From the IMG/VR virus record IMGVR_UViG_3300025655_000243, positions 1-26,422 of that record: a stretch of DNA of 26,422 bases, one strand, 5' to 3'. Positions 17,206 through 26,422 of this stretch are shown one piece after another. Below the pieces are notes generated by a model that did no database searches, was not told the origin of the DNA, and saw only the letters and a program-made list of their open reading frames with translations. Source of the stretch: a virus. The translations under genes and the position numbers were made by a program. How positions within the stretch are numbered: the first letter of the stretch is position 1; each line of letters starts with the position of its first letter.

Positions 17206-17985
17206 ATGGCAAAAGGAGAAACAAAAAGTCCATTAAAAGCGACATGGCAAGATAGAACGCTAGGCGGTAAAATATTAAGCGTCATAGCACCTGTCCCAGC
17301 TTTAGCTTATCAAGGTATAGACACTAAACGTCAAAAATTAAAAGATGAAATAGCAGCGTCTGAAGAGCAAAGAATGGCTCAACAGCAAGCTTACGAAGGT
17401 TTTGACTTTGTTAATCCTTATGCTAACCTAGAGAATCCGTTTGAGGATTTAACTATAAATCAACAAGCCGCTGACTTCATGGCTAAGCAACAAGCTCAAT
17501 CACAAGCTAATACTTTAGCCGCATTAAGAGCTTCAGCTGGCGGTTCTGGTATAGCTGGTTTAGCTCAAGTGTTACAACAGCAGAATCAAGCAAATCTTCA
17601 AGCTGCTCAAGCTGATATAGCCGCACAAGAAAGCAACATACAGCAAATGAAAGCTCAAGGCGAAATGCAACTAAGCAAATTAGCTGCAGCTGGAGAACAA
17701 CAAGTTCAACAGCAACAGTTTGGTAGAATTGAAAACTTGCTTGAAATGTCTATGGGTAGAGAAGCTGGAGCTAGACAAGCTGCTTCCGCGTTTGACCAAC
17801 AACTAGTTAATATTGGAACATCAATGTTATCTACAGCTGGTCAAGTTGCTGGCGCTAGCATAGGTAATCCCGCAGCTTTTGGTGGTAGCATAAGTCCAAG
17901 TGGAATTAATACTGGTGGTTTACCTACTGGTTACGGAGGTGCTCAAACTCAAGCTGGATATGATTATTTTAATAATAATAATTAA
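17206..17985 (+). CDS. Internal virion protein (T7 gp14-like role)
   Basis: This 259-residue protein opens the block of three putative ejected proteins. It has a basic N-terminus with a hydrophobic stretch (GGKILSVIAPVPALAYQGI), then a Gln/Ala-rich helical region (MAKQQAQSQANTLAALRASA; GGSGIAGLAQVLQQQNQANL) and a long amphipathic helix to about residue 195. The tail is Gly/Ser/Asn-rich. The sequence EGFDFVNPYANLENPFEDLT is a pattern I recall from internal proteins of marine podoviruses. T7 gp14 (196 residues) is the outer-membrane part of the ejection channel, and an Ala/Gln/Gly-rich amphipathic protein in the same order fits this role. Homology to gp14 is not claimed. Confidence 0.6.
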   Translation: MAKGETKSPLKATWQDRTLGGKILSVIAPVPALAYQGIDTKRQKLKDEIAASEEQRMAQQQAYEGFDFVNPYANLENPFEDLTINQQAADFMAKQQAQSQANTLAALRASAGGSGIAGLAQVLQQQNQANLQAAQADIAAQESNIQQMKAQGEMQLSKLAAAGEQQVQQQQFGRIENLLEMSMGREAGARQAASAFDQQLVNIGTSMLSTAGQVAGASIGNPAAFGGSISPSGINTGGLPTGYGGAQTQAGYDYFNNNN

Positions 17986-17991
17986 TAAATC

Positions 17992-19350
17992 ATGGCAAGT
18001 AATTTAGCAAAATTAGCATACGAAATATCATTAGCAAAAGGCGCTACTCCAAACTTTACTGGATTAGCTAAAGCCGTTACTGATGGAGCTATGAATATAG
18101 TCGACGCCAATATGGAAGCGGCTAAAATGTATGAGTCGCAAAGAGAAGCATTAGATACTACTGGATTATCTGAAGAAGCTATAAGTGCGCTAAACCCTAA
18201 ACTACAAGGTTTAAAGTCTGAGTATTTTCAAGCTTCTAAAGATGCTAGAAACTTATTCTTAAGCTCTGATCAACGACAAGCAGCTGTTGATAAGATGAAT
18301 AACATAAACTTTCAAATAAAAGGATTAGGAGATTATACGGATCAAATAAAAGATTTAAAAACAAGAGCTAAGCAGTTGTCTGAAAACTACTCCGCATCTA
18401 CAACGGCTCCTCAGTCTGGATTAACATCAGATTTAGTATCTGGAGAGTTTTGGAAAGACGTCGTTATTGAAAACGGTAGAATGATGTACAAACCTACTGG
18501 TGAAGAAGGTGTAGATGTGATGGATTTAAAATTAGGTCCTGAGTCTAGTGAAAGAATACCGACAGCTATAACCGATCTTCAAGTGGCCGTCCAAGATCAC
18601 GTGAGTAAAGGCGGTAAATATGAAGGCGCTTATAAAAATCAAGTTGAAAACAAATTAGCAGAATTATTCTCTGATTTACAAGAATCAACAGCATTTGCCT
18701 ATGATGGATTTAGATTTCAAGGTGAAGATATGAAGTTTATAAACAACTACATTGACATGATAAATGATGGAAAGCAAGTTGATCCTAAAAACCGCGAACT
18801 TCAAAAAGAAGCTTATAAGACAGCTGATCTTAGAAATCCTTTATTTTCATACTACAAAGATACGTTTAAAACTATCGGCGCTAACGCTGAAGACGCTTAC
18901 GATAGAAAATTAAGAGAAGAAGATCAAAGAAAAGTAAATTTATATCAAAAACAAGTTGATATAAGAACAGCTGCTACAGCAAAACCTATACAGCCAACCA
19001 TGTCTCCTCAAGACATAGCTGAAGCAATACAACGTAGAGACACTGTCCCAGCTGGCGATGGTTTTACATATAGATACTCTCCAGCAGATAAAGTTTATTC
19101 GCTATATAATAAATCCGGGGTACAAATAAAAGAGGGTGAAGAAGGTGAATATAGAGTTGCGTTAACTCCTAGTGAACTTGCGGGATCTTTAAAGGATGTT
19201 GGTAGTATTTATGAATCATTAATTCAACAACAACAAGTTAAGAATATTATGAATTCTACTGGTTATTCTGAAGATAAAGCAAAGCAACTTTTAGGCTACA
19301 TGGGTTCATTGGGTGGACCAACAGATCTTCCAGTAATGCCTAAAAAATAA
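17992..19350 (+). CDS. Internal virion protein (T7 gp15-like position)
   Basis: This 452-residue protein is the middle member of the ejection-protein trio, six bases after the first and 13 before the giant one. It is mainly helical and charged. The N-terminus is ASNLAKLAYEISLAKGATPN, followed by long helices rich in Gln/Lys/Asp (NLFLSSDQRQAAVDKMNNIN). A central segment reads FQGEDMKFINNYIDMINDG. A small beta-type piece (GFTYRYSPADKVYSLYNKSG) precedes a final helix and a Gly/Pro tail. There is no signal peptide and no enzymatic motif. T7 gp15 (about 750 residues) forms the periplasmic tube. Size and order suggest a shorter functional counterpart, inferred from context only. Confidence 0.55.
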   Translation: MASNLAKLAYEISLAKGATPNFTGLAKAVTDGAMNIVDANMEAAKMYESQREALDTTGLSEEAISALNPKLQGLKSEYFQASKDARNLFLSSDQRQAAVDKMNNINFQIKGLGDYTDQIKDLKTRAKQLSENYSASTTAPQSGLTSDLVSGEFWKDVVIENGRMMYKPTGEEGVDVMDLKLGPESSERIPTAITDLQVAVQDHVSKGGKYEGAYKNQVENKLAELFSDLQESTAFAYDGFRFQGEDMKFINNYIDMINDGKQVDPKNRELQKEAYKTADLRNPLFSYYKDTFKTIGANAEDAYDRKLREEDQRKVNLYQKQVDIRTAATAKPIQPTMSPQDIAEAIQRRDTVPAGDGFTYRYSPADKVYSLYNKSGVQIKEGEEGEYRVALTPSELAGSLKDVGSIYESLIQQQQVKNIMNSTGYSEDKAKQLLGYMGSLGGPTDLPVMPKK

Positions 19351-19363
19351 ATTAAAGATTAAT

Positions 19364-22300
19364 ATGTTTGAATATAATGGAAAAGAGTATTCGCTTGACC
19401 AAATTCAAAGCGAAGCTAACGCACAGGGCGTAGACTTTAATGAGTATTTAGATTTTTTAAAAACTCAAGGCCTTGTGGAAAAGACACAAGACTCTCAGAT
19501 AACGAGTGCACCTGCGGAGTCGGAAACTGCTGCACTCGATACGGTATCTCCTTCGGAAGACACTTTTTTGGTTTCACCTCAAGACGAAGAAGAAGCTGAT
19601 TTCTTAGATAAATTAGGGAATATATTTGAAAATCAAATACCAACAGTTAAGAACGCATGGGAAAGCACTAAAGCAAATTTAGTCGACTATGTTAAATTTA
19701 TGGGCGGCAAAGATGCTGCTGATTTTTTTGTTGGTGAAAGTGATGGTGGTATAGCTTTTAAAGACGAAAGTACCGGAGAGACTATAACATTTAAAAATAA
19801 TCCTGAAGTTTGGAAGCAAATAGCTAATGATCCAAATAGAGATTCTTATTCTAATATAAAAACAATATATAAAGACACTGGCAAAGAAGTTGGCGAAGCA
19901 ACCGACGAATTTCTTATTGATACTTTTAAACAAATAGAGAAGAACAAGCTAGAATATAAGGACACTGGAAAAGGTATAGTTGGTGGCTTTAAAGAAGGAA
20001 ATATTGGTGATGTTGTTCTTGGGGCTGTGAATGGCCTAACCAGTGTTGTTACTACGGCTGGTCCAGCTATGATGACTGGTGGCCTTACTTTAATACCTCA
20101 AGTTGTAGCCCCAATGTATACAGAGTATAACATGGAGAAAGCAAAAGCTAAATATGGCGAAGATGATCCTAATGCTTTTGAAAAACTTGTTGAAAACAAC
20201 GAAACAGAATTAGGCGCCCCAGCTGTACTTGGAGCAATGGCTTATGCCTTAGAGAAAATAGGTATAAAAGGTATAGGGAAATACATAGCATCAAAATCTT
20301 TCGCTGGAAAACAAGCTGTAAAACTAGCGTTAACTGGAAATAAAGAAGGTTTAACTGAATATTTTCAAGGTGGTGTAGAGCAAATAAACAAAGGTTTGGC
20401 TCAAGGACAAGATTACGAAAAAGTAATTGAAGACACTTGGGATTGGATGCAAAGCGAAGAAGCTTTAGAAAATTACGCTCAAGGTTTTGTAGGTTCTACT
20501 GGTATGTCTAGTAGTGGTAGAGCTATATCAAACGCTATGAAAAGTAGCGAGCAAGCAAAGCAAGATATATATAGACAAATAAATGTTATTTCTAGTTTAA
20601 ATCAAGCTATAAGAGAAACTAATAGTAACGAATTAAAAGAAAGCTATCAAGAAGACCTAGCTATAGCTGAGCAGAATTTAAGAGAAATAGTAGAAGAAAA
20701 TAATAGAAAAGCAGAGTTATTAAGTAAAGAGCAAAAAGATAACGTCATTAGTAATATTAATCAAAGAAAAGCTCTTAGAGATAAAGCTAATAAATTAATA
20801 AAACAAAAAGATCAAGGCGTAATAACTCAACAAGAGTTTGACGCTGCTGCAGAACTTATTAACAAGCAGAATAAACAAATTGATGATAATATTGAAGTAA
20901 TTAGAAAAAGCGCTTCTGATAAGCTCGTTCAAGAAAACATCAACAACGTAAAGAAAGCTGCTAAAAACACTTATGGAGACGACGTTCAAATTAAAGAACT
21001 TAGCGCTGAAGAAGTAAAACAATACGTTAGAGATAATTTTAAAAACTTAGACAAGGATCAGCAAGAATCTTTAACAGAAGAAGCCGCTGCTAGTCAAGGG
21101 TTTTTTGAAGGCGCAGTTATTGATGGAAAGCAAGACGTAATTATAAATAAAGATGTAACGCAAGAAACATCTGGTATTAACGTAGCTTCCCACGAATTTT
21201 TACACAAAGTATTATCTAAATCTCTTGATGATAAATCTAGAATTGAAGTTGGTTCAGCTTTAATTAATCAACTAGCTAAAATGGATTTACCACAATTAGA
21301 GGGTAGTAAATTTGCTAAAAGATTACAACTATATAAAGACAAACCTGAATCAGTTCAAGCTGAAGAAATACTAACATTGTTATCCGATGCAATTAGATCT
21401 GGAGATTTAGACTTTAAAGAAGGTGTGTTTGCTAGACTAGGAAACACTATTAGAAGAGGATTACAAAATGCTGGTATAAGAAAAATTAAATTTGATAGTG
21501 GTAGAGACATTTATAATTTTATTAAAGATTATAATAAATCTATTGAGAAAGGTATATTAAAAGGAGCTGTAAAAGAAGCGGCTGTAGAAGGTATAACTGG
21601 TAAGTTAATCGAACAACCAGTAGTAAACATTAAAGATGATGTAGCTAAGTTTTCAAAAGAAATAGCTTCTCAAGAAGTTCAAAATATATACGAGCAACAA
21701 GGTGAAGCCGGTATGTTTGATATATTCCAAAAATTCAAACCTATCACAACACGTATTGCTAGAAGATTTAGAGAAGTACCAGGTTATGATGAACAGTTAA
21801 TCATTGATGAAATAGAAACTGGCGAAAGAGGTATCTTAGATCTTATTAGATCATATAAACCTGAGTCTGGAGTACCTTTAGCCGCTTATATAAATAAGTT
21901 CCTTCCAGCACGCTCTATTGAAGCCGGTAATAGAATACTTAAAACAGAGTTTGAGTCAGATGTAACTGAAGAAAAAGGCGTAGCCGCTACAGAAACAGCT
22001 GAAGACGTAGTTGAAACAACTACTAGAGAAGAAGGTAGAAAAACTAAAGCTAAAGTTATAGCTGATGAATTAAACATAGCTGATAAGGTTGCATCAGAGG
22101 TCGCGGAAGCTAATATAGATCCTAACGTATTAACTAACTTTAAAAGTGTCCCTAACGCCGCTATAAACACCGTAGGTGAGATGTTAGGAATATCTCCAGC
22201 TAAAATAAAAAGCAAAGCCAATTTAACAGCGGAAGAAGTTGCTAGTGCTCAACGTTGGTTTAATAAAAACGCTCAATTAGTTATCGATGCTTTACCACAA

Positions 22301-25300
22301 GGATTTGATGTTGAAGGTCAAGCGACAGGTGTGCCTAAAACTGTTTTAGCAGCTTTGTATACTCAAAAAGAGTCAAGAGCTAAGACTAAAGCTGGTTTAA
22401 AAGGTCAAGTTAAAAGAACAAATATAAAAAATTCAGAGCTTTTAGAGTTGGTAGATATTATAGACGGCAAACCAACTCGTAATAGAAATACATCGGCTAG
22501 AGTTATAGCATTAGCTGACTTACTAGGCAAAACAATTACTAATCAAGAAATTAGAAGAACCACTCCAGGTACAGAAAGAATACGAAGTGGTATGTCTAAG
22601 GTTATGTTTAGTTTTGCAGAAGATATAATAAACATTAAATCTTTATTCGAGCTAGAGACTAAAGGTATAGACAAGCTTCTTGAAGCTTACGACTTGAATT
22701 TGACTTTTGATTTAAAAACAGAAAAAGGCATAGAACAAGCTGTTGAAACAATAAAAACGAAACTATTGCCATTATTACCTAGAGATTTCTGGTTTGGCAC
22801 TCCAAATAAAAAAGGTGAATTTGGAACTGTATTTACGCCAAGTTACTACGTCGTTGGAACTAGCAAAAACGCAGAGGTTAAACAAAAGTATAAAAACTTG
22901 TATAAAAAGTTTGAAACTGAAATAAAAAAACTAAGAGATGATAAAGATGTTACTTTTGGCGAGGATATTTTAGATTCAAATGGAAAACCTATAGATTTTT
23001 CAGTATCTTCTTATAGCACTATATTTAAAGACGCTAATACTATAAAGAAAAATAAAAAGAAAATAGAAGCTTGGAATAAAAAAGTCGCGCTAATACATAG
23101 AGAAATGTGGAAGCGATTTAATAAAGCTATACAAGACGATAAAAACAATGCTAGCATAATTGGCAATTACTTAAAAATGGTTGGTAGCGATACCGGGCAT
23201 TGGCATAAGCTAGGAGCTCAATTTGTTGGTTATTCAGACAAAATAACTGGAAAAAGATTTGAGTACGAACATGCTATGCCGGCTACATCTGCGTATTTAT
23301 ATCTCATGGACGCTGCTTTATCTGAGTCTAACTTTGACGCTTCTTACGATTTAGTTATAGACAACTACAAGTTAATAGCGTTAGACAAAGCTATGGATAA
23401 GAAACTAACTGCCGTTGGACTTCAAAGACGTATGCCTGAAGGCTGGGACTTAATAGAAAATAACTGGTGGGATAGATATTTTAATGAGTTAGTCGGCAAT
23501 GTAGATGGAGGTATAAATCCTAATTCTATTGTAGGTTTAGATGGAAAAGGTCTTGGCGAAACATTAAACGTCAATACTGAAGGTAATGTAATGTTTTCTA
23601 AACCTATTGGTAAAAATATTAATGTTAGCGAAGCTATGCTTAATGCTAGACCAGCATTACAATATAGTAAAGAATCAAGAGGTATGTCTACTTTTGATTT
23701 TGATGAAACACTAATTATTGATGGTGAAAACTTTGTCACAGCTACTAAAGGTGATGACGTCGTTAAAATACCTTCTGATAAATGGCCTATTGATGGTCCA
23801 GCTTATGCTGATCAAGGATATGAATTTGACTTTTCTGATTTTGTTAATGTAAGAGGTGGTAAAGAAGGTCCGCTGTTACAAAAAATGAAAAATCAAATCA
23901 AAAAGTATGGACCTGAAAATGTATATGTGCTTACGGCAAGAATGCAAGAAGCTGCTACACCAATATACGAATGGTTAAAAAGTCAAGGTATTAATATACC
24001 TATAGAAAATATAACTGGATTAGGAAACAGCAAAGGTGAAGCTAAAGCTTTGTGGATGCTAGATAAGTTTGCAGAAGGATATAACGATATGTACTTTGTA
24101 GACGACGCTTTGCCAAATGTTGAAGCTGTTAAAGATGTTCTTGACCAGTTAGATATTAAATCTAAAGTTGTTCAAGCTAAAATTCAATTCAGCAAAGGCT
24201 TAAGCAGTGAGTTTAACAAAATATTAGAAGATACTAAAGGAATATCTGCTCAAGAAAAAATATCAAAAGCTGCAGCTAAAGCTTACGGTAGAGATATAGG
24301 TAGATACGAGTTCTTTATTCCTCCAAGCGCTGATGATTTCGCTGGTTTGATCTATAGATTTCTTGGCAAAGGAAAACAAGGTGAGGCTCATAAAGAGTTT
24401 TTCAAAAAAGCTTTGTTTGATCCATTTGCTAGAGCTGATCGTGAAATGGACTTAGCTAAAACAAATATAAGAGAAGATTATAAAAATCTTAAAAAGAATT
24501 TCCCTGAAGTTGTTAGAAAGCTTAATAAAAAGATAACAGGTAAACCCTATACTTACGACACGGCTATAAGAGTTTATTTATTTGACAAAGCTGGATATAA
24601 ATTATCAGACATGTCAGATAAAGAAATTGCTGAGTTAAGAGATTTTGTTAAAGCTGATGATTTTTTAAGAACATTTGCTGATACATTAGGCCTAATAACA
24701 AAGGTAAAAGAAGGTTATATAAAACCCGGAGAAAGTTGGTTAGGCGGGAATATAAACTCAGATCTTCAAGATGCTGTAGACAAAGTTGGTAGAAAGAAAT
24801 TCTTAGCTGAATGGATGGAAAATAAAAAAGCAATATTTAGTGAAGCAAACCTAAATAAAATTGAAGCTACCTACGGATCAGCATTTAGATCTGCCTTAGA
24901 GGATATTTTATTCCGAATGGAAAATGGCATAAACAGACCTTCAGGAAGCAATGCTATAGTTAATAGATGGAATAATTGGGTTAACAATTCTGTTGGTGCA
25001 ATTATGTTCTTAAATATGAGATCCGCTGTTCTTCAGACCTTGTCTACAGTTAACTTTATTAACTTTGAAGATAATAATATATTTAACGCCGCTAAAGCAT
25101 TTGCTAATCAAAAACAATATTGGGAGGACTTCTCTACATTGTTTAACTCTCCTTTCTTGAAACAAAGAAGATCAGGTTTGCAAACAGATATTAATCAAGC
25201 TGAACTTGCTAGCGCTGTGGCTGGAGCTAAAAATAAAGCTAGAGCTGCGTTTCAGTTCATGATTAAAGTTGGTTTTGCTCCAACGCAAATAGCGGATTCT

Positions 25301-26260
25301 TTTGCTATAGCTACTGGTGGAGCTACTTTTTATAGAAATAGAATTAAAAAATATTTAAACGAAGGGTTAGACCAAAAGCAAGCTGAGACTAAAGCTTTTC
25401 AAGATTTCCAAGAAATATCTGAAGAAACGCAACAGTCTGCTAGACCAGACCGTATATCTCAACAACAAGCTTCTGTTCTTGGTCGTTTAGTATTAGCTTT
25501 CCAAAATACTCCAATGCAATATGCTCGTCTTATTAAAAAAGCGTCTTTAGACTTAGTTAATAAAAGAGGTGATTGGAGAAGTAATGTATCTAAAATAATA
25601 TACTACGGAGCTATACAGAATATAATATTTTCAGCTATGCAGAACGCTGTGTTTGCTATTATGTTTGATGACGAAGAAGATAAAGAAATGCTAGATGAAA
25701 AAACACTTCGTATTGGTAATAGTATGCTAGATTCTATACTTAGAGGTTCTGGTTTAGCTGGAGGAGTTGTTTCTACAATTAAAAATATAATCATTAAATT
25801 TTTAGATGAAGAAGAAAAAGGCTATAAAGCTGACATGGGTAATGTTGTTGTTGAAGCCGCTAACATCTCGCCTCCAATTGGATCTAAACTTAGAAAACTG
25901 TATTCAGGTTTAAAAACATGGAAGTTTAAAAAAGATCAAATAAAAGAAACAAGCCCGTATGATATAAATAATCCTGCGTGGTTAGCTTCTGGAAACGTTA
26001 TATCAGCAGCAACAAATGTGCCTGTAGATAGATTTGTTAAGAAATTATCAAATATTCAGCAAGCATTTAATCAAGACAATGCTACATGGCAAAGAATAGC
26101 TGTGGGTTTAGGTTGGGATCAATGGGGATTAGGTATAACGCCTCAAGCTAAAGAAAAAGATAAAAGATCTATGGATGTTAGAGAAGTTAGAGAGAAAAGA
26201 TCTAAGGATATTAAAAAGGCTAGAGAGGAAAGAAGAAAAAGACTACAAAGACTAAAATAA
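19364..26260 (+). CDS. Giant multi-domain ejected virion ('polyvalent') protein
   Basis: This 2298-residue protein is last in the ejection trio (T7 gp16 position). In order: N-terminal YNGKEYSLDQIQSEANAQG motif as in packaged virion proteins (1-35); hydrophobic, possibly membrane-active stretch (214-255); coiled coils (390-540); zincin motif HEFLH (610-614) with Glu667/668 as possible third ligand; sigma-70 region-2-like segment (790-870); EYEHAMPATSAY segment (1300-1311) resembling His-Me-finger nucleases; HAD phosphatase with D1445/D1447/T1449, LTAR (1523-1526), K1557 or K1561 and D1580/D1581; long C-terminal region (1865-2110) with hydrophobic helices (NSVGAIMFLNMRSAVLQTL; KIIYYGAIQNIIFSAMQNAV); Lys/Arg-rich tail (2263-2298). 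No lytic transglycosylase motif was seen. HAD is firm, zincin good, sigma and nuclease resemblances tentative. Confidence 0.75.
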   Translation: MFEYNGKEYSLDQIQSEANAQGVDFNEYLDFLKTQGLVEKTQDSQITSAPAESETAALDTVSPSEDTFLVSPQDEEEADFLDKLGNIFENQIPTVKNAWESTKANLVDYVKFMGGKDAADFFVGESDGGIAFKDESTGETITFKNNPEVWKQIANDPNRDSYSNIKTIYKDTGKEVGEATDEFLIDTFKQIEKNKLEYKDTGKGIVGGFKEGNIGDVVLGAVNGLTSVVTTAGPAMMTGGLTLIPQVVAPMYTEYNMEKAKAKYGEDDPNAFEKLVENNETELGAPAVLGAMAYALEKIGIKGIGKYIASKSFAGKQAVKLALTGNKEGLTEYFQGGVEQINKGLAQGQDYEKVIEDTWDWMQSEEALENYAQGFVGSTGMSSSGRAISNAMKSSEQAKQDIYRQINVISSLNQAIRETNSNELKESYQEDLAIAEQNLREIVEENNRKAELLSKEQKDNVISNINQRKALRDKANKLIKQKDQGVITQQEFDAAAELINKQNKQIDDNIEVIRKSASDKLVQENINNVKKAAKNTYGDDVQIKELSAEEVKQYVRDNFKNLDKDQQESLTEEAAASQGFFEGAVIDGKQDVIINKDVTQETSGINVASHEFLHKVLSKSLDDKSRIEVGSALINQLAKMDLPQLEGSKFAKRLQLYKDKPESVQAEEILTLLSDAIRSGDLDFKEGVFARLGNTIRRGLQNAGIRKIKFDSGRDIYNFIKDYNKSIEKGILKGAVKEAAVEGITGKLIEQPVVNIKDDVAKFSKEIASQEVQNIYEQQGEAGMFDIFQKFKPITTRIARRFREVPGYDEQLIIDEIETGERGILDLIRSYKPESGVPLAAYINKFLPARSIEAGNRILKTEFESDVTEEKGVAATETAEDVVETTTREEGRKTKAKVIADELNIADKVASEVAEANIDPNVLTNFKSVPNAAINTVGEMLGISPAKIKSKANLTAEEVASAQRWFNKNAQLVIDALPQGFDVEGQATGVPKTVLAALYTQKESRAKTKAGLKGQVKRTNIKNSELLELVDIIDGKPTRNRNTSARVIALADLLGKTITNQEIRRTTPGTERIRSGMSKVMFSFAEDIINIKSLFELETKGIDKLLEAYDLNLTFDLKTEKGIEQAVETIKTKLLPLLPRDFWFGTPNKKGEFGTVFTPSYYVVGTSKNAEVKQKYKNLYKKFETEIKKLRDDKDVTFGEDILDSNGKPIDFSVSSYSTIFKDANTIKKNKKKIEAWNKKVALIHREMWKRFNKAIQDDKNNASIIGNYLKMVGSDTGHWHKLGAQFVGYSDKITGKRFEYEHAMPATSAYLYLMDAALSESNFDASYDLVIDNYKLIALDKAMDKKLTAVGLQRRMPEGWDLIENNWWDRYFNELVGNVDGGINPNSIVGLDGKGLGETLNVNTEGNVMFSKPIGKNINVSEAMLNARPALQYSKESRGMSTFDFDETLIIDGENFVTATKGDDVVKIPSDKWPIDGPAYADQGYEFDFSDFVNVRGGKEGPLLQKMKNQIKKYGPENVYVLTARMQEAATPIYEWLKSQGINIPIENITGLGNSKGEAKALWMLDKFAEGYNDMYFVDDALPNVEAVKDVLDQLDIKSKVVQAKIQFSKGLSSEFNKILEDTKGISAQEKISKAAAKAYGRDIGRYEFFIPPSADDFAGLIYRFLGKGKQGEAHKEFFKKALFDPFARADREMDLAKTNIREDYKNLKKNFPEVVRKLNKKITGKPYTYDTAIRVYLFDKAGYKLSDMSDKEIAELRDFVKADDFLRTFADTLGLITKVKEGYIKPGESWLGGNINSDLQDAVDKVGRKKFLAEWMENKKAIFSEANLNKIEATYGSAFRSALEDILFRMENGINRPSGSNAIVNRWNNWVNNSVGAIMFLNMRSAVLQTLSTVNFINFEDNNIFNAAKAFANQKQYWEDFSTLFNSPFLKQRRSGLQTDINQAELASAVAGAKNKARAAFQFMIKVGFAPTQIADSFAIATGGATFYRNRIKKYLNEGLDQKQAETKAFQDFQEISEETQQSARPDRISQQQASVLGRLVLAFQNTPMQYARLIKKASLDLVNKRGDWRSNVSKIIYYGAIQNIIFSAMQNAVFAIMFDDEEDKEMLDEKTLRIGNSMLDSILRGSGLAGGVVSTIKNIIIKFLDEEEKGYKADMGNVVVEAANISPPIGSKLRKLYSGLKTWKFKKDQIKETSPYDINNPAWLASGNVISAATNVPVDRFVKKLSNIQQAFNQDNATWQRIAVGLGWDQWGLGITPQAKEKDKRSMDVREVREKRSKDIKKAREERRKRLQRLK

Positions 26261-26280: not shown

Positions 26281-26422
26281 ATGGCGCCGGTAGACAAAGA
26301 AATAGCTTTAATGCAACAGAGAATGGATCAACTAGACAACAAACTTGATAAGTTAGATGAAAAGTTAGATATGTTAACTAAGCAATTACTAGATCCTGAT
26401 AGAGGTATTGCTGCTAGAGTTA
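26281..26422 (+). CDS. Small coiled-coil protein, 3' partial
   Basis: An ATG 20 bases after the giant gene opens a frame that continues to the window edge (47 complete codons). It begins MAPVDKEIALMQQRMDQLDN and continues KLDKLDEKLDMLTKQLLD, a clean heptad pattern predicting a parallel coiled coil, then DPDRGIAARV. A short coiled coil at this position could be the start of an XhlA/holin-type membrane-anchored lysis protein or a small structural linker. A transmembrane helix further on would favour the former but lies outside the window. The ATG is preceded by an A/T-rich leader similar to that at 17174-17194. Confidence 0.6.
   Translation, partial: MAPVDKEIALMQQRMDQLDNKLDKLDEKLDMLTKQLLDPDRGIAARV

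Follow-up and report, generated by a model that had tools for sequence, protein, structure and literature searches.

A giant gene at the end of a phage fragment encodes what is probably a large ejection-type (internal virion) protein of the phage polyvalent class, in which a zincin-like metallopeptidase, a domain predicted to have the fold of sigma-70 region 2 and a HAD phosphatase are joined in one chain and would act by the steps proposed below. The window, i.e., the whole stretch of DNA analysed, is a virus record of 26,422 bases and, because of this length, the genome is probably incomplete. The giant gene occupies 26% of the window and is the last gene of the fragment apart from a partial ORF (26281-26422), which starts with MAPVDKEIALMQQRMDQLDNKLDKLDEKL..., is coiled-coil-like and is broken by the contig end. 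The features of the gene and of the two genes upstream are as follows:

17206..17985, + strand: virion-type protein encoded upstream, similar in sequence to phi38:1 gp99 (E 4.7e-12) and to elemo gp20 (E 1.6e-4), and possibly a gp14-like partner
17992..19350, + strand: upstream 452-aa protein, possible gp15-like partner by the position of phi38:1 gp100 only
19364..26260, + strand: putative giant polyvalent ejection-type protein, an intact ORF of 2298 aa with ATG start and TAA stop
19364..19486, + strand: N-terminal alpha/beta motif of about 41 aa (residues 1-41), a confident beta-hairpin and two helices
20003..20266, + strand: hydrophobic Gly/Ala-rich stretch (residues 214-301), Kyte-Doolittle peaks 1.0-1.35, model partly of low confidence
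20546..20983, + strand: long-helix/coiled-coil region (residues 395-540), helices 396-418, 422-451, 455-483 and 489-540, pLDDT 80-96
20984..21598, + strand: zincin-like metallopeptidase domain (residues 541-745), core pLDDT about 90
21653..21943, + strand: sigma-70 region-2-like domain (residues 764-860), pLDDT mostly >90, predicted from fold and profile matches
22058..22561, + strand: compact domain (residues 899-1066), core pLDDT about 95
22616..23563, + strand: 'EH' domain (residues 1085-1400), pLDDT about 90, with E1302, H1303, D1345 and R1371 nearly invariant
23669..24148, + strand: HAD phosphatase domain (residues 1436-1595), nucleophile D1445, assigned by fold and motifs
24149..26143, + strand: long all-helical C-terminal domain (residues 1596-2260), from the AlphaFold model and its likeness to phage polyvalent proteins
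26129..26260, + strand: basic C-terminal tail including the stop codon, with 18 K/R among the final 43 residues

With the whole giant protein, tblastn against GenBank phages found no match, and the Pfam, PHROG, NCBIfam and PADLOC scans returned nothing significant. A promoter scan showed no excess above shuffles. The domain assignment was based on two template-free AlphaFold models, whose input alignments contained the window and locus sequences only, covering residues 1-1095 (mean pLDDT 73) and 1075-2274 (mean pLDDT 81). Counting from the N-terminus, the models predict the zincin domain, the sigma-70 region-2 fold, the domain 899-1066, the 'EH' domain, the HAD domain and a helical C-terminus. 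An earlier note on this DNA had placed several putative enzymes in one chain and had named helical repeats devoid of enzyme folds as the case against its reading; both the zincin and the HAD folds are predicted in the models. The coiled coils that it had listed correspond to the confidently modelled long-helix region, and the basic C-terminus is likewise borne out.

Relatives were sought in IMG/VR, where the whole protein retrieved 13 and the C-terminal alignment more than 557; the family set, taken from the retrieved loci, comprises 92 giant proteins and that of the window. As most relatives were retrieved via the C-terminal part, the conservation of this part is by selection; retrieval placed no such condition on the other modules. 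Module counts refer to 81 non-duplicate relatives with an intact N-terminus (2229-3861 aa). In 74 of the 81, a module aligns with the sigma-like region, and the modules follow one fixed order (zincin, sigma-like, HAD, core) in all 69 relatives that could be scored. The giant gene is interrupted in two relatives, by one in-frame TGA near 8377 in L081 and by a frameshift within 9850-10250 in L090; a natural gene split was rejected in view of the nature of these lesions, which may represent an assembly error, recoding or decay.

It could be supposed that the giant is a purely structural, tape-measure-like internal core or tail protein whose enzyme folds are relics, since the chain is largely helical, the neighbouring genes are virion genes and some viral Foldseek matches of the N-terminal half, albeit weak, are tape measure proteins. 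We consider this quite improbable: the zincin module is present in 80/81 N-intact relatives, with HExxH kept in all 80, and HAD motif I in 78/81, despite N-terminal halves that are mostly just 13-45% identical among members; in addition, the gene set is of the podovirus type and loss of the HAD domain is rare.

The genes preceding the giant gene encode TerL, portal, a protein in the scaffold position, a major-capsid-type protein (MCP), and connector-type and large tail proteins. The order TerL-portal-w6879-MCP-...-w17206 is the same as in Cellulophaga phage phi38:1, Flavobacterium phage elemo and MW202828, with most of the genes matching at E 1e-12 to 0, and clear homologues of portal, TerL and MCP are shared with the Pervagoviridae phage phi38:1. 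The closing gene of this series encodes a protein of 1691 aa in phi38:1, 3694 aa in elemo and 3859 aa in MW202828, and a large structural protein gene lies within the corresponding set of Tenacibaculum phage Gundel and Cellulophaga phage phi46:3 (Pachyviridae). A giant final virion gene is thus a trait of the group, with variable content. For the cultured flavobacterial podoviruses, record annotations describe the product of the gene at this position as a 'structural protein' (phi38:1, elemo, Gundel) or a 'virion structural protein' (phi46:3). The zincin module also occurs in elemo gp18 and the MW202828 giant, and the C-terminal core2 profile, searched against seven proteins, matches Gundel gp74 at E 1.5e-10; for the 452-aa protein encoded upstream (17992..19350), in the position of phi38:1 gp100, no sequence match was detectable. 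These data support the late position that the earlier note had compared with that of T7 gp16. The window phage is uncultivated; it is probably a podovirus with affinities to Pervagoviridae/Pachyviridae and Elemovirus, and its host is probably among the Bacteroidota. Six relative loci sit in metagenome bins, five of which are labelled as Bacteroidetes groups, binning being weak host evidence. Ahead of TerL, the window encodes a PHROG 'co-chaperonin GroES' protein (1380-2009), and GroEL/GroES genes are also present in several relatives.

The N-terminal motif was recognised in 20/93 relatives. The hydrophobic stretch at residues 214-301 is a possible membrane or conduit part of the protein. Membrane-active-looking stretches had been noted at both ends of the chain, and hydrophobic windows do exist at 214-301 and 1878-2147, but their hydrophobicity is moderate only (Kyte-Doolittle <=1.41). 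The zincin domain carries the previously noted HExxH motif as HEFLH at residues 610-614 (21191-21205; H610/E611/H614), for which the chance expectation is 0.0017 in a protein of such composition, and E668 (21365-21367), kept in 85/86 relatives, is the likely candidate for the third zinc ligand. In structure comparison, residues 517-748 matched Certhrax and anthrax lethal factor in their zincin-like domains (Z 7.0), and the zincin of polyvalent proteins has been linked to lethal factor as well (PMC5512222). A search of PDB sequences with the zincin profile found nothing convincing.

The HAD domain contains the full motif set that had been read from the sequence before, namely D1445/D1447 (89/96), T1524 within LTAR (90/96), K1561 (90/96) and D1580/D1581, and the four motifs sit on a Rossmann-like core. 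Its best match in the PDB is the 3'-phosphatase of T4 Pnkp (5uj0; Z 11.3, rmsd 2.4, 120 aligned), and the PHROG profile most often matched by the HAD members is the polynucleotide kinase phrog_415 (27/42); Pfam DUF2608 is matched by 40/42 members, with the window slightly below its cut-off. The HAD profile gave chance matches only against PDB sequences, though fold and PHROG agree, and the Pfam and PHROG scans of the giant protein did not find a kinase domain. In L008 the domain is degenerate and in L009 and L010 it is absent, with the remaining protein kept; hence, it is dispensable. Four relatives (L061, L062, L073 and L079) carry inserts, about 65 to 200 residues long, right after HAD motif I, in the cap position, suggesting an exchange of substrate-specificity caps.

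Residues 764-860 are predicted to have the fold of sigma-70 region 2, as indicated by the model, profile-profile comparison and PDB profile search. The segment that the earlier note had related to DNA or RNA polymerases thus exists, but it resembles sigma-70 region 2 and not a polymerase. The best structural match is sigma70 (6ca0_F; Z 8.7, rmsd 2.8, 90 aligned) and, among the matches listed, all those confined to residues 764-860 belong to the sigma-70 family (sigma70, sigmaS, sigma32, sigmaA and others; Z 6.7-8.7, rmsd 2.5-4.0, 79-96 residues). These Z-scores are middling for a small helical domain and could reflect a common arrangement, so the resemblance might be no more than one helical bundle looking like another by chance; independent sequence tests were run, because middling Z-scores can mislead for helical domains. 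A search of PDB sequences with a profile of 33 family members had a sigma factor as its top match (E 0.0038) and also brought RpoS and sigmaK, all aligned to region 2. Comparison by hhalign with six sigma factors, four from E. coli and two from phages, gave a score of 28.6 (P 2.2e-5), whereas the controls reached <=6.5 for 40 column shuffles, 9.9 for the reversed profile and <=5.4 for other modules of the giant protein; with eight phage sigma factors, P was 7.5e-6. The part aligned is identical in the sequence and structure comparisons, and these results make a chance likeness very unlikely. When the profiles were split by clade, the similarity persisted in the clade of the window (P 1.7e-4), was weak in a second clade (P 0.006) and was not reached by six further clade profiles; outside those two clades, the sigma-like assignment is by iterative alignment and position. 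Pfam Sigma70_r2 has no match in this module of the giants and matches the separate sigma genes only.

The alignment pairs IDEIETGERGILDLIRSY of the window with LDLIQEGNIGLMKAVDKF of RpoD. At the positions that we take, from sigma70 mutants, to be core contacts (L402, D403, Q406, E407, N409 and M413), the window has I, D, E, T, E and L, three of the six being kept or conservative (I, D and L). The promoter-reading and melting aromatics of regions 2.3/2.4 are mostly replaced (Y425 by V, F427 by L, W433 by K and W434 by F; Y430 is kept), and domain 886-1072 showed no similarity to sigma region 4 by hhalign, nor did Pfam match it in the whole protein. The domain is not classed as a sigma factor, since most promoter-reading residues are missing and no likeness to region 4 was found in the next domain. 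The same two observations, together with a divergence of the module so fast that other clades are no longer sigma-like by profile, would also suit an ejected polyvalent protein in which a sigma-derived helical element serves as scaffold or for packaging and makes no contact with RNA polymerase (RNAP). We regard this as possible but less likely than not; it is at odds with the specificity of the fold, with the same place of the module in so many relatives, and with a phage group in which sigma is encoded separately and no RNAP is recognised.

The latter statement relies on 18 long relative contigs (62-71 kb). Neither a T7-type RNAP (T7 control found) nor a multisubunit beta' (controls found 14/14) was detected in them, and PF00940 was not found in the window record or the 18 relatives, its control being of the T7 type, with the divergent N4 virion type not among the controls. 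A reading of the giant itself as a polymerase was rejected, as neither a T7-type nor a multisubunit RNAP was recognised. A separate sigma-70-family gene, whose product of about 255 aa contains both region 2 and region 4, was found in 16/18 long relatives. The separate sigma proteins, found also in L117-L122, L006 and L102, often end in a conserved SQVxDxL and are encoded apart from the giant gene. Phages phi38:1, elemo, MW202828 and Gundel have giants without the sigma-like module, as judged by profile search, and genomes without a separate sigma gene; this association of module and gene is suggestive only, because contigs may be incomplete and it holds at the group level.

With no recognisable RNAP and a separate sigma gene in most long relatives, it is plausible that a virion-delivered sigma-like piece docks on the host polymerase, where it could either recruit that polymerase or block the host sigma. 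One version of the latter would make the domain a decoy that keeps the host sigma off core polymerase and shuts off the host, phage transcription being driven by the separate phage sigma. A region 2 with no detectable region 4 could indeed occupy the core and not read promoters, and a full separate sigma is available; however, the binding is conjecture and the stoichiometry of an injected protein is perhaps too low to compete, and we find this version rather doubtful.

The domain 899-1066 has the motif LPxG..G.ATGvp...fYt...Q.K, and its C-terminal part was recognised in 27/93 relatives. In the 'EH' domain, H1303 of the EHxxP motif is kept in 62/62, and this histidine, with the conserved Asp and Arg, looks like an active site; its profile had no convincing match among PDB sequences. 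Foldseek of the C-terminal half against BFVD (prob 1.00) gave many matches annotated as large polyvalent, PolyVal-ART (ADP-ribosyltransferase) or MuF-C proteins, and also the Gundel_1 structural protein, supporting the polyvalent class mentioned in the earlier note. Against the PDB it gave no match at E <= 0.001, and the Pfam LPD38 HMM, in a search without a positive control, had no match in the giant protein.

The preferred reading, that of an ejected polyvalent protein, can be put as a series of steps. Synthesis of the protein would fall late in infection, and it would be packaged together with the products of the two genes directly upstream, as the gene position and the annotation of the counterparts suggest. 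It would then enter the host with the DNA, perhaps aided by the hydrophobic segments that lie close to the N-terminus and within the helical C-terminal domain. The zincin, whose motif is observed, may cleave its own chain, or host proteins, and free the working units. The predicted sigma-like domain may dock on the clamp of host RNAP and divert or restrain the polymerase at the onset of infection. The Pnkp-like HAD domain, to judge from its predicted fold and observed motifs, may strip 3'-phosphates off damaged DNA or RNA ends or nucleotides. It is also conceivable, though less likely than not, that an injected sigma fragment, joined in one chain to a releasing protease and an end-healing phosphatase, seizes the host RNAP before any phage gene is expressed.

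The T7 protein gp16 is, with gp14 and gp15, a late-gene ejection protein that has a lytic transglycosylase and is much shorter than the window giant. Similarly, the window gene closes a run of three adjacent late genes, of which it is the largest, and an ejection role is proposed for its product; unlike in gp16, no lytic transglycosylase was detected, and the zincin, sigma-like and HAD domains are present instead. The giants phi38:1 gp101, elemo gp18, Gundel gp74 and that of MW202828 share the gene position or the gene set but lack HAD motif I. The HAD domain is linked to T4 polynucleotide kinase-phosphatase by its best PDB match and by the PHROG profile, and differs from this enzyme in that no kinase domain was found in the giant.

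Polyvalent proteins were surveyed by Iyer et al. (2017), who reported the zincin as their commonest domain, thought to process polyvalent proteins, and genes located near late genes (PMC5512222). The window giant is likewise a multidomain chain of unlike activities beside late virion genes; it has a zincin HExxH with a Glu on a later helix (common, not required) and a helical C-terminus that matches models annotated as polyvalent, but no curated Pfam polyvalent domain reaches its cut-off. In the text of the compendium (PMC5512222), a term search found neither sigma domains nor a phosphatase, whereas the window giant has both as predicted folds; a virion-borne sigma domain was not found in the open-access literature, within its incomplete coverage. 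The class of polyvalent ejection proteins is therefore already known, and the sigma-like and phosphatase content is new to it so far as the literature was searched; sigma region 2 and a Pnkp-like phosphatase would thereby extend the repertoire known for injected polyvalent proteins.

The virion RNAP of phage N4 is a packaged giant with an MPTase (zincin) domain (PMC5512222). The window protein would resemble it as a giant with a zincin, presumably injected, for which early transcription could be the aim; it differs in that no RNAP domain was found and the host polymerase would be the target of the sigma-like piece. For transcription start in podoviruses of marine Bacteroidota that have no recognisable polymerase, the sigma-like domain is a concrete, testable candidate, with a fixed place in a giant protein encoded throughout a large group of uncultivated phages. 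Phage N4 injects a polymerase and phage T4 injects Alt, a polymerase-modifying enzyme; if the present reading is true, an injected sigma fragment would be a third route to early transcription beside these two.
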